Below, piece after piece: positions 19,884-23,824 of a stretch of 42,018 nt of DNA. This DNA comes from Zoogloea sp. (lineage in GTDB: Bacteria > Pseudomonadota > Gammaproteobacteria > Burkholderiales > Rhodocyclaceae): the NCBI RefSeq assembly GCF_028689785.1, contig NZ_JAQVCN010000044.1:1-42018 (forward strand). The letters are read 5' to 3'. A program made the position numbers and the translations under genes. Position 1 is the first letter of the stretch. Each line of letters opens with the position of its first letter. The notes beneath the pieces are model-generated. The model was given only the letters and a program-made list of their open reading frames with translations, searched no databases and was not told the DNA's origin.

Positions 19884-20828
19884 TCACTTCCTGCGCACGT
19901 CCAGCCACACATCCAGCCCCTGGGCGTTGAGCTCCACGTCCAGCGCCAGAATGCGCCGCCACTCGGCTTCAGGCACGGTCCACCCGGCACGGACGGCCTC
20001 TTCGCCGACCAGAGCCCAGATGTCCTGCTCGATCCGCTCCTTGCGCTCCTCTGCGGCCTCGTGACGCTCCGCGATGGCCACGTGGGCGTCGATCAGGCGG
20101 TGCATATCGGCCGCCAGGCGCGGCACGTCCCGCACCTGGGCGTAGTGAGTCAGATACATGGCAGTGGGCTGCTCGGCCTCCATGCGGCGGATGGAGGCGT
20201 GCATGGCCTCCGGCTCGAACTGCACCGGCGTGGTGGTGGGGAAGATGCTGGGTTTTCCGTTCACATCCAGAGTCCGGTACGAGAGGCCAAAGGTATCGCC
20301 GGTAAAGAAGGCCCGGCTCTTCGTGTCGAAATAACACACGTGATGGCGGGCATGACCCGGCGTGTCGAAGACGCGGATGACGCGCCCCGCCAGGTTCAGC
20401 TCATGGCCGTCACCGGCCTCGATGATGCGCTCCACCGGCACAGGGATCAGCTCGCCGTAGAGCGCCCTCGCCCGCTCCGGCCCATACACCGCCGACACCC
20501 CGGCAAACAGCTTCGACGGCTCCGCCATGTGGCGTGCCCCTCGCGGATGCACCACCAGCTTGGCGTTGGGAAAGGCCTGCATGAAGGCTCCGGCACCACC
20601 GGCATGATCCAGGTGGATGTGGGTGAGGAGCACGAAGTCCACCGACTCCGCAGACAGGCCCGTCTCGGCCAGGGCCGCCAGTACATGGCGTAGCGATTCG
20701 TTGTTTCCCGTATCTACCAGCGCCGCCCGGCCACCTTCCTCAATGAGGTGAATCGCGGCCACATCGGGTCCGGTATAAGCTGAGTCCACGGCAAAGATGC
20801 CGCTCCCGAAATCGATCAGTCCCTGCAT
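19884..20828 (-). CDS. MBL-fold metallo-hydrolase
   Basis: 314 aa. The dinuclear metal motif HxHxDH is present as His70, His72, Asp74 and His75 (LLTHIHLDHAGG). Further ligands lie in DTPGHARHHVCYF, FFTGDTFG and the late histidine YLTHYAQ. The first 215 residues form the alpha-beta-beta-alpha domain; the C-terminal about 90 residues form a helical extension seen in a subgroup of uncharacterised hydrolases. The substrate is not deducible; thioesters and lactones are precedents in the superfamily. It is divergent from the Zn-ribbon nuclease gene, with a palindrome between them. Confidence 0.9.
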   Translation of the reverse strand: MQGLIDFGSGIFAVDSAYTGPDVAAIHLIEEGGRAALVDTGNNESLRHVLAALAETGLSAESVDFVLLTHIHLDHAGGAGAFMQAFPNAKLVVHPRGARHMAEPSKLFAGVSAVYGPERARALYGELIPVPVERIIEAGDGHELNLAGRVIRVFDTPGHARHHVCYFDTKSRAFFTGDTFGLSYRTLDVNGKPSIFPTTTPVQFEPEAMHASIRRMEAEQPTAMYLTHYAQVRDVPRLAADMHRLIDAHVAIAERHEAAEERKERIEQDIWALVGEEAVRAGWTVPEAEWRRILALDVELNAQGLDVWLDVRRK

Positions 20829-20881
20829 GGCCTTGCCCCTGAAAAAATACCGATTCTAGCCGGCACGCTGACATTTATGTG

Positions 20882-20891
20882 ACGTGCACGT
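20882..20891. promoter_or_regulatory. ACGTGCACGT palindrome upstream of the MBL-fold gene
   Basis: A perfect 10-base palindrome, flanked by TTTATGTG on one side and AAAG on the other, lies 54 bases before the MBL gene start. It sits just upstream of a possible minus-strand -10 (TAGAAT, about 20856-20861). It resembles operators of MerR-type LiuR regulators, but the identity is a guess. Confidence 0.35.
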
Positions 20892-20950
20892 AAAGTAATC
20901 CGTCGTCACGCGGCGTGAAACCTTCGCTCGCCAGCCCCCAAACAGATTGG

Positions 20951-20956
20951 CATAAT
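20951..20956 (+). promoter_or_regulatory. Candidate -10 for the Zn-ribbon nuclease gene
   Basis: CATAAT lies 30 bases before the ATG of the nuclease gene. No good -35 is seen 16-18 bases upstream, so this is a weak or activator-dependent promoter candidate. Confidence 0.3.
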
Positions 20957-20985: not shown

Positions 20986-21969
20986 ATGGCCCTTCTTCGC
21001 TGCAACAAGTGTGGTCACGTCGCAGAAGCCCATGCCACCCAGATCGGCACCAACGTCCCCTGCCCGGCCTGCGGCAATCACGTCCCGGTGTACGACACGG
21101 TCCTGTTCGTCCGCAAGGTACTGCAGCAGTACTTCGCCCTGCAGGACGAAGTGAAGCAGCTTCGCGCCGGCTCTGCCGTTACCGAAATCGCTACTGCTCC
21201 AAAAACGGCGGTGTCCGACATTGATTTCCACAACACAGAACACCTCACCAGCGAAGCCTGGCATGCAGAGATCGTAGCCTGGTTCCAGCGCCGGCAGATC
21301 CAGGTCCGCACCAGCCCCGACGCCGTCAACACCACGGGCTTCTTCGACGAGTTTGCCGTGGAGATCGGTGACAACTACCCCCTGCTGGGGGACGTGGTGG
21401 GCAAGATCCGCTGGGCTCAGCAGAAGGATGTGCCCCACTTCAGCCTCAAGCTCGGCGAACTGAGCCAGAAGGACGGCCAAGCCATCAATGCCTTCTGCAA
21501 GCGCCTCCACGAACACACTTTCCTGTCCAAGTACTTCTACCAGAAGCAAGACAAGCTGGGCCGGGCCACCATTCAGTCGGCCCCGGCCATCCGGAATTTC
21601 TTTGCCGGTGACTGGCTGGAGTGGTACGCCCTGATGAAGCTGTTGACCTTCCTCCAGGCGCGGCAGAAGGCCTTCTCCTGCACCCGCAACCTGTCGGTGA
21701 TCTTTCCCAACGAAGACCTCCATGAGCTCGATGTATTCTTCCTGGTAGAGAGCAACACGCCGGTGTGCGTCGAATGCAAGACCGGCGAGTTCCGCCAGGA
21801 CATCGACAAGTACCTGCGGCTGCGCAAACGCCTGGGCATCGACCGGAGTCAGTTCATCCTGTGCTGCCTGGGCCTGAGCGACGAGCAGGCGGCGGGTCTC
21901 TCCAGCATGTACGAGCTCAGCTTTGTCAGCCCGACAGGCCTGCAGGGCCATCTGGCAAAGCTGTTCTGA
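20986..21969 (+). CDS. Zinc-ribbon protein with C-terminal Card1 (DUF1887)-like PD-(D/E)XK nuclease domain
   Basis: 327 aa. Residues 1-35 are a four-cysteine zinc ribbon (Cys6, Cys9, Cys26, Cys29). Residues about 36-60 are helical, and residues 75-200 form a region I do not recognise (LTSEAWHAEIVAWFQRR to IQSAPAI). Residues about 205-325 match the restriction-endonuclease fold of Card1/Can2: GDWLEWYAL (Glu212), HELDVFF (Asp249), and the catalytic strand PVCVECKTGEF (Glu263, Lys265), followed by DKYLRLRKRLGI. In Card1 this domain is joined to a CARF sensor and cuts DNA or RNA in type III CRISPR immunity. Here there is no CARF signature and no CRISPR locus; the zinc ribbon replaces the sensor. 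recQ starts 34 bases downstream on the same strand. The function is unknown; defence or DNA repair is an inference. Confidence 0.78.
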   Translation: MALLRCNKCGHVAEAHATQIGTNVPCPACGNHVPVYDTVLFVRKVLQQYFALQDEVKQLRAGSAVTEIATAPKTAVSDIDFHNTEHLTSEAWHAEIVAWFQRRQIQVRTSPDAVNTTGFFDEFAVEIGDNYPLLGDVVGKIRWAQQKDVPHFSLKLGELSQKDGQAINAFCKRLHEHTFLSKYFYQKQDKLGRATIQSAPAIRNFFAGDWLEWYALMKLLTFLQARQKAFSCTRNLSVIFPNEDLHELDVFFLVESNTPVCVECKTGEFRQDIDKYLRLRKRLGIDRSQFILCCLGLSDEQAAGLSSMYELSFVSPTGLQGHLAKLF

Positions 21970-22003
21970 CCTGCGCCGCTGGCCGGGGTAAAATCCGGGC
22001 CCT

Positions 22004-23824
22004 ATGAGCCGCGCCCGCGAAACCCTATTCCACGTCTTCGGTTACACCCAGTTCCGCGGTCCGCAGGAGGACATCGTCGAACATGTGGCGGCCGGCGGCG
22101 ATGCCCTGGTGCTGATGCCCACGGGCGGCGGCAAATCCCTGTGCTACCAGATTCCGGCGCTGCTGCGGCCCGGGGTGGCCATCGTGGTATCGCCGCTGAT
22201 CGCGCTGATGCAGGATCAGGTCAGTGCGCTGAAGGAAGTGGGCGCCGCAGCGGATTTCCTCAACTCCAGCCTGAGCTTCGACCGGGCCATGGAGATCGAG
22301 CGGGCCATGCTGGCGGGGGCGCTGGACATGCTCTACGTGGCACCGGAGCGCCTTGTCACCCCGCGCTTTCTGGACCTGCTGGACCATCTCCACGAGGCCG
22401 GCCAGCTCGCCCTGTTCGCCATCGACGAAGCCCACTGCGTGTCCCAGTGGGGCCATGACTTCCGGCCCGAATACCTGCAGCTGTCCATCCTGCAGGAGCG
22501 CTACCCGCAGATTCCACGCATCGCCCTCACCGCCACCGCCGACGCCCAGACCCGCCGCGAGATCGCCGAGCGCCTCTGCCTCACCACCGCGCGGGAGTTC
22601 GTCTCCAGCTTCGACCGGCCCAACATCCGTTACACCATCGTGCCCAAGGACAACGCCCGCGCCCAGTTGCTGGCCTTCATCCGCGACGGGCACCTGGGCG
22701 AAGCCGGCATCGTGTATTGCAGCTCCCGCAAGAAGGTGGATGAGACCGCCGCCTGGCTGACGGAAAAGGGCATCTCCGCCCTGGCCTACCATGCCGGCAT
22801 GGCGGCCGACGAGCGCGCCACCAACCAGGACCGCTTCCTGCGCGAGGACGGCATCGTGATGGTGGCCACCATCGCGTTCGGCATGGGCATCGACAAACCG
22901 GACGTGCGCTTCGTGGCGCATCTGGACCTGCCCCGCTCCATCGAGGGCTATTATCAGGAAACCGGCCGCGCCGGCCGGGACGGTCTGCCCTCGGAGGCCT
23001 GGATGGCCTACAGCGTGGCTGACCTGGTGCTGCAGCGCCGTTTCATCGACCAGGGCGAAGCCGACGCCGAGGTCAAGCGCGTGGCCACCGCCAAGCTCGA
23101 CGCCCTGCTCGGCCTGTGCGAGACCACCGGCTGCCGTCGCCAGCGCCTGCTGGGTTACTTCGACGAAGATTCTGCCCCCTGCGGCAACTGTGACACCTGC
23201 CTGCACCCGCCCCAGGTGCGCGATGCCACCGAGTCGGCCAAAAAGGCCTTGTCCTGCGTGTTCCGCACCGGCAGCCGCTTTGGCGCCGGCCACGTGGTGG
23301 ATGTGCTGATCGGCAAGACCACCGACAAGGTGAAGGAGTGGCAACACGACCAGGTGAGCACCTTCGGCATCGGCACCGAGCTCGACGACAAGGGCTGGCG
23401 CACCCTGATCCGCCAGCTCGTCGCCCACGGCGCCCTGGCCGTGGACCATGAACGCTACGGCGCCCTGACCCTCACCGAAGCCGCCCGCCCCCTGCTGCGC
23501 GGCGAGACCAGCTTCACCCTGCGCATCGACGCCACCCCGGCGAAGAAAAGCCGCAAGGCCGACACCACCCGCAAGCTGCGCGACTGGCCCGAGGCCACCG
23601 GTGCCGAGGCCCAGCTGCTGGAACGCCTGCGCAGCTGGCGCGCCGCCACCGCCCGGGAACGCAACGTGCCCGCCTACGTGATCTTCCACGACGCCACCCT
23701 GCGCGACATCGCCCACCAGCGCCCCGACAGCGTCGAAGGCCTGGGGACCATCTCGGGGGTGGGTGACCGGAAACTGGAGGCCTACGGCAAGGACATCCTG
23801 ACGCTTCTCGCCGACACCGAATAG
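22004..23824 (+). CDS. recQ: ATP-dependent DNA helicase RecQ
   Basis: 606 aa, the usual RecQ length. The helicase core has Walker [10 protein letters not shown] (Lys44), DEAH at 141-144 with the RecQ-specific aromatic loop [14 protein letters not shown], and motif [14 protein letters not shown]. The RecQ-C-terminal region has the four-cysteine zinc site [10 protein letters not shown]...CGNCDTC (about 378-400), then a winged helix. The HRDC domain occupies about the last 80 residues ([20 protein letters not shown]). It unwinds DNA 3'-5' in recombination and fork repair. The upstream Zn-ribbon nuclease gene is close enough for co-transcription. Confidence 0.96.

Follow-up and report, generated by a model that had tools for sequence, protein, structure and literature searches.

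The window analysed here, a stretch of 42,018 nucleotides from Zoogloea sp. (contig NZ_JAQVCN010000044.1), contains a gene for a 327-residue protein in which a probable nuclease domain of the Card1/Can2 type is preceded by a zinc ribbon, a long helix and a middle domain. Card1/Can2 nucleases have been studied as CRISPR effectors that are gated by cyclic oligoadenylate (cOA). The window protein has no detected CARF domain, and it may represent a different way of controlling the same active site. The reading that we favour, and to which we give an even chance, is that of a solitary CARF-less nuclease encoded by a single, horizontally moving gene. The protein's own N-terminal and middle domains would gate it, and its probable task would be the surveillance of nucleic acids. 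A sequence-only reading of this DNA had already proposed the Card1-like core and the lack of a CARF domain and of CRISPR, and had coupled the protein to the RecQ helicase encoded directly downstream. The fold, the active site, the lack of a detected CARF domain and of a Cas10 match in this genome are borne out by our analysis, whereas the coupling to RecQ is not: the nuclease appears to work alone, since recQ adjoins it only within a single genus of bacteria.

Fold and active site of the nuclease domain

An AlphaFold2 (AF2) model of the full-length protein (predicted local distance difference test (pLDDT) 89.9, predicted template modelling score 0.74) yields 19 fold matches in the PDB at E <= 1e-3, and every one of these is a Card1, Can2, Cdn1 or VC1899 structure. 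The restriction-type fold that the sequence-only reading expected from such a prediction is thus obtained. The best match is VC1899 (PDB 1XMX, E 2.6e-10). When the PDB is searched with a profile of 33 homologues, Can2 is matched at E 2.1e-6 and Card1 at E 2e-4. In the profile alignment (positions counted by hand) D249 corresponds to Card1 D294, E263 to E308 and K265 to K310; PDB entry 6xl1 is the D294N mutant of Card1. The hhalign comparison with six CARF-bearing Card1-like proteins reaches 98.1% and is restricted to the nuclease profile columns 198-332.

Recognition by family models is uneven. The PADLOC model CARF_PDDEXK matches residues 187-300 at E 2.9e-13 and a second PADLOC model matches residues 122-294 at E 1.3e-10. 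The Pfam family Card1_endonuc (PF09002) gives E 0.0021 on the window protein alone, short of its cut-off, and matches 30 of the 33 homologues at E <= 0.1 (best 6.3e-7). When the window's genome was searched in six frames, PF09002 returned nothing even at E <= 1, so this model is blind to the gene there, which speaks against easy recognition of the family.

All four residues named in the sequence-only reading (E212, D249, E263 and K265) are kept in 48 of 49 aligned homologues, and in 45 of the 49 they occur together with the four cysteines of the zinc ribbon. Three of the remaining homologues are without the ribbon and one, P0002 (L093:1474-2505), is catalytically altered: it carries S/D/Q/R at the catalytic sites (E212S, E263Q, K265R) and is likely an inactive form. 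Loss of active-site residues is also known for the nuclease-like domain of Can1, according to passages in PMC6981274 and PMC7969007. The 49-row alignment omits truncated, frameshifted and near-duplicate copies (including L026, L028, L043, L045, L065 and L072), and some of its rows, as well as some of the 42-row tree used below, are open frames that begin where the alignment begins, with an unproven start codon; a 32-row variant of the 33-row alignment leaves out L024. Taken as modelled, the C-terminal part is probably a Card1-type PD-(D/E)XK nuclease domain with its catalytic residues present, from which cutting activity would be expected.

The gene is also maintained by selection. The ratio of nonsynonymous to synonymous substitution rates (omega) is 0.10-0.29 in 11 comparisons with Zoogloea-type copies, with synonymous divergence near or above 1 in some of them, so conservation of the open reading frame (ORF) is not due to chance. 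For recQ omega is 0.04-0.15 (10 comparisons) and for the metallo-beta-lactamase (MBL)-fold hydrolase gene on the other side (mbl) 0.08-0.17 (11 comparisons). Judged from these ratios, the nuclease gene is functional and under purifying selection that is looser than in both neighbours.

N-terminal part and middle domain

The zinc ribbon region comprises residues 1-37. The Pfam family Zn_ribbon_8 matches residues 5-32 at E 1.1e-4, under the Pfam cut-off, and Cys 6, 9, 26 and 29 are invariant in all 33 rows of the alignment and present in 46 of the 49 rows of the larger one, in agreement with the four-Cys ribbon described earlier from the sequence. Helix 38-62 is followed by a hypervariable linker (residues 63-77) of low AF2 confidence. 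Over 11 Zoogloea-type copies this linker averages 13% identity to the window protein, as compared with 73% (ribbon), 80% (helix), 82% (middle domain) and 84% (nuclease domain). The model is suggestive of a role of the helix in pairing two copies of the protein. The module of zinc ribbon and helix is seen on non-nuclease proteins too (L121:1747-2475 and L122:1755-2075). By eye these have a hydrophobic segment within or just after the module, and BLUF-type genes lie nearby (E 6.8e-30 for L122:2467-2967; the one in L121 recognised by eye).

The middle domain was described as unrecognised and so it proves in our searches: Pfam gives nothing at E <= 0.5, sequence comparison with the PDB gives nothing below E 0.6, and residues 78-202 folded alone (pLDDT 83.6) have no PDB fold match at E <= 1e-3. 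Among the best 50 rows of the fold search, yeast Stn1 is at the top with E 0.035 and a root mean square deviation (rmsd) of 13, and six rows of ribosomal protein S8 have probabilities of 0.96-0.99, E 0.11-0.24 and rmsd 2.1-3.5. A ribosomal protein S8 fold may serve as a weak lead. Two other candidates were rejected. The domain is not recognised as a CARF remnant, there being no CARF match and no hhalign columns in that region, nor as a part of the Card1/Can2 nuclease or a winged helix, with no significant PDB match and no Card1/Can2 structure among the best 50 rows.

Relatives exist in which the middle domain and the nuclease are joined to another N-terminus without the four cysteines. These are P0001 (L094:185-1081), which hhalign matches at 99.2% over window residues 97-297, and L124:2599-3597; the former adjoins tyrS, the latter an M48 peptidase gene. 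A P0001-type gene occurs in one of 78 genomes of the class to which the genome of P0001 belongs, that one being the genome itself. A further locus has a nuclease-only ORF of 158 codons right after groEL (L125:2440-2913), without a zinc ribbon and perhaps a remnant.

No detected CARF domain and no firm CRISPR link

No CARF family of Pfam matches the window protein at E <= 1, while as a control a CARF-bearing relative (L079) matches CARF_Card1 at 8.3e-18. Together with the hhalign result, which is limited to nuclease columns, this agrees with the absence of CARF noted before. The window has no CRISPR-like direct-repeat family, and in its genome nothing matches the Cas10 palm model (PF22335) at E <= 1e-3, in line with the earlier statement that there is no CRISPR here. 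Among 39 carriers of the nuclease gene a Cas10-like match exceeds 60 bits in four, and any match above the cut-off is found in 12. In the control two of six genomes with CARF-Card1 proteins exceed 60 bits and E. coli matches as well through cross-reaction; the Cas10 test is therefore coarse.

Relation to recQ

As stated in the sequence-only reading, recQ follows 34 bases downstream on the same strand and encodes an ordinary RecQ helicase (Table 1). The survey of homologues shows where this adjacency holds. It covers 45 related loci in named genomes, a non-exhaustive set of relatives sharing short peptides with the window protein. In this set recQ directly follows the nuclease gene in 17 of the 18 Zoogloea-type loci; the exception, L028, breaks off within the gene. 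The 27 other loci show no recQ within the flanks examined, which for L038 and L040 comprise just 427 and 946 bases downstream. It is likewise found in none of 21 additional loci (with flanks of at most 1.5 kb, less than 200 bases downstream in L071 and L094, and several from the same species as named loci) and in none of another 16 (10 distinct places; two are the zinc-ribbon module only, and L117 has almost no downstream flank). In every one of the 18 Zoogloea-type loci measured, that of the window among them, the two genes share a strand and are 27-40 bases apart.

Genomes without the gene point the same way. Five Zoogloea genomes have no match to the nuclease gene; four of them have recQ and G018 gave no recQ match. 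G010 and G009 have mbl and recQ adjacent with no nuclease gene between, and G007 and G016 have recQ without the nuclease gene beside it. Both genes are present but apart in G253 and G371, from another genus of the same family. The mbl-recQ site of G010 retains a perfect 16-base match to the window's gene at its 3' end, stop codon included (the longest in 100 base shuffles was 13). A deletion of the gene would leave such a remnant, while the site of G009 shows no trace and, going by its sequence, may never have held the gene.

The promoter scan found three sites in the window against a shuffle mean of 0.3: those of Table 1 and one more upstream of the nuclease gene (20868-20896). CATAAT is present upstream of the nuclease gene, and TA[AG]AAT in the gap before recQ, in 18 of 18 Zoogloea-type loci. 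With these elements the two genes are likely transcribed separately. Going by gene order, the position of recQ is a matter of Zoogloea synteny and coincidence, a possibility that the sequence-only reading had itself allowed for.

Distribution and movement

Outside Zoogloea the nuclease gene occurs in a variety of places. In many Comamonadaceae it lies by or near mogA and cysE with pmbA. Other neighbours are metG, mpl, hda, a YggS-like gene, HlyIII, alpha-amylase, a penicillin-binding protein and nitronate monooxygenase, and further ones are an alpha/beta hydrolase, a thioesterase, CMAS, a histidine kinase, a Band_7 gene and a dGTPase. Neighbouring ORFs were called by a simple script and chosen ones only were identified by hidden Markov model (HMM). 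The product of hda is the regulatory inactivator of DnaA; in L064 (by HMM) and L069 (by eye) this gene lies approximately 12 bases upstream on the same strand, with a divergent purM-like gene. No neighbour gene is common to all nuclease loci examined. As the gene sits amid unrelated genes and is gained and lost as one gene, it seems to need no conserved operon partner.

The distribution is patchy. Within Zoogloea 17 of 22 genomes besides the window's own carry the gene. Other genera of the family, sampled with 13 genomes, gave no carrier, yet G253 and G371 of that family have the gene. At wider scales, where the counts for order, class and phylum include the window's own genome, carriers number 15 of 399 in the order at E <= 1e-3 (seven only partial, one broken), 10 of 369 in the class at E <= 1e-10 (some partial) and 4 of 398 in the phylum sample. 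The family to which G128 belongs, counted without the window's genome, has 14 carriers among 250 at E <= 1e-20; the G128 copy is Comamonas testosteroni by its identity to L041. Copies are also found in two metagenome-assembled genomes (MAGs) of Desulfobulbaceae, which belong to another phylum. G013 and G361 have frameshifted copies that may reflect decay or assembly errors.

In the 42-row tree a Methyloversatilis copy falls inside the Zoogloea clade (100/98), at a locus beside a YggS-like gene and without recQ. Its contig comes from a MAG and a binning error is possible; its neighbours nonetheless differ from those of the Zoogloea locus. The tree needs 8 changes of neighbourhood class where the least possible number is 6, with L023 assigned to the mogA class because its near-copy L081 has mogA upstream. 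From tree and gene order, the nuclease gene appears to move horizontally as a single gene, between genera and probably between phyla. No relative was found in plasmid or phage records or in viral contigs, and a BFVD fold search for a viral origin gave no match at E <= 1e-3.

Proposed mechanism and alternatives

In the mechanism that we favour, the C-terminal PD-(D/E)XK domain with its four retained catalytic residues would be the cutting part of a dimeric, metal-dependent nuclease acting on DNA and/or RNA, with dimerisation through helix 38-62. The zinc ribbon, long helix, flexible linker and compact middle domain would replace the cOA sensor. Access of the substrate would be set by what the zinc ribbon and the middle domain bind, which may be a nucleic-acid structure or a protein partner rather than cOA; sensing of nucleic acid by one of the two is plausible but putative. 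The role would be surveillance against foreign or aberrant nucleic acid, with chromosomal maintenance ranked next. A more specific version, held only tentatively, is that of a CARF-independent branch of Card1 in which zinc ribbon and middle domain detect such nucleic acid directly. One gene would then make up the whole immune nuclease and, with no helper gene, would hop from one ordinary chromosomal site to another in Pseudomonadota and Desulfobulbaceae.

Several observations weigh against this view. A defence role has no positional support: the identified neighbours are ordinary, recQ being the one that the PADLOC scan covered, and plasmid and phage records and viral contigs yield no match. 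Four of the 39 carriers do have a strong Cas10-like match. The middle-domain fold has no significant assignment, and the domain may be less distinct than claimed, as the second PADLOC model reaches into it; because the full-length fold matches to VC1899 moreover span 248 columns, it may partly overlap the nuclease. P0001 and L124 exist without the zinc ribbon, which is therefore not essential to the architecture. Finally, one homologue (P0002) has lost three of the four catalytic residues.

The alternatives differ in what they make of these points. The protein might serve the chromosome rather than defence, as a nuclease for repair, RNA turnover or the processing of replication intermediates. 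Its ordinary neighbourhoods, the purifying selection, its frequency within Zoogloea, the position close behind hda in two genomes and the lack of phage or plasmid copies would all fit such a task, but the gene is patchy (as the family of G128 shows), is lacking at intact sites in Zoogloea, is frameshifted in two assemblies, evolves faster than both neighbours and has been transferred between genera and probably phyla; we consider maintenance a possible but doubtful explanation. Rather improbable is an effector of second-messenger signalling, with the middle domain as the binding site for some nucleotide different from cyclic tetra-adenylate (cA4). Card1/Can2 kin are ligand-gated, as passages of PMC7969007 describe, and the middle domain adjoins the nuclease in the AF2 model; against this, there is no CARF match, no conserved neighbour such as a cyclase among those examined, and few carriers with a strong Cas10-like match.

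Slightly less probable again is a subunit or regulator of a larger complex in which the nuclease domain is partly structural. The degenerate P0002 and the occurrence of the zinc-ribbon/helix module on non-nuclease proteins would suit it, whereas the near-universal retention of the active site and the lack of a conserved partner gene do not. As for a defence or repair module in which the nuclease cuts DNA that RecQ has unwound, the similar spacing and the shared strand in Zoogloea and the fact that both are nucleic-acid enzymes speak for it. It is nevertheless very improbable in view of the loci elsewhere that have no recQ in their flanks, the Zoogloea genomes with recQ and no nuclease gene, the separate promoter-like elements and the Methyloversatilis copy without recQ.

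Comparison with known systems

With Card1/Can2 (CARF-PD-(D/E)XK, DUF1887, PF09002) the window protein shares the nuclease fold, the catalytic residues and the C-terminal position of the nuclease. It differs in having zinc ribbon, helix and middle domain where those proteins have CARF, and in showing no general association with type III CRISPR, as judged from the Cas10-like matches of carriers. Its best fold match, VC1899, is according to PMC7969007 an orphan DUF1887 protein that occurs without type III CRISPR and is a weak RNase not regulated by cA4; it has a CARF domain, whereas none was detected in the window protein. A non-CRISPR PD-(D/E)XK DNase, bAgaN of the long-B Argonaute systems, is structurally similar to Card1/Can2 according to its authors (PMC10620215). 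It works with an Argonaute, whereas the window gene has no conserved partner. CARF genes unlinked to CRISPR also have precedent, as passages of PMC4012209 indicate.

Among the matches listed from openly licensed PMC literature (titles and starts of abstracts), no zinc-ribbon or CARF-less Card1-type protein is described. The nuclease family is thus known and non-CRISPR members are precedented, and the apparently new part, as far as the papers listed go, is the CARF-less architecture with a zinc ribbon. The same active site behind a different sensing end raises the question how a Card1-type nuclease is controlled without CARF, and a small protein from a single gene is well suited to testing such control. 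The case also corrects the tempting inference of an operon from the adjacency of nuclease gene and recQ.

Features and neighbouring genes

Table 1. Features of the nuclease gene and its surroundings in the window
Feature	Position	Strand	Basis or remark
Nuclease coding sequence (zinc-ribbon, probable Card1-type; 327 residues, ATG start)	20986..21969	+	
N-terminal zinc ribbon, residues 5-32 (Cys 6, 9, 26, 29)	20998..21081	+	Pfam Zn_ribbon_8 and Cys conservation
Long helix, residues 38-62	21097..21171	+	AF2 model; possible dimerisation segment
Middle domain, residues 78-199	21217..21582	+	Residues 78-202 folded alone
Probable Card1/Can2-type PD-(D/E)XK nuclease domain, residues 200-327 (E212, D249, E263, K265)	21583..21966	+	
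Promoter-like site of nuclease gene, TCGCCA-17-CATAAT	20928..20956	+	Promoter scan
Promoter-like site of recQ, CTGACC-17-TAAAAT	21966..21994	+	Promoter scan; first hexamer overlaps nuclease stop codon
recQ, ordinary RecQ helicase, 606 residues	22004..23824	+	TIGR01389, E 2e-242; judged outside the system
mbl, MBL-fold hydrolase, divergent upstream	19884..20828	-	Lactamase_B, E 5.7e-25; Zoogloea syntenic neighbour, outside the system

In L003 an additional ORF of 146 codons lies between the MBL gene and the nuclease gene (L003:7490-7927), with no Pfam or NCBIfam match. The gap between these two genes is similarly wide in four other Zoogloea-type loci, at 473-530 bases, whereas in the window it measures 157 bases and has no such ORF.

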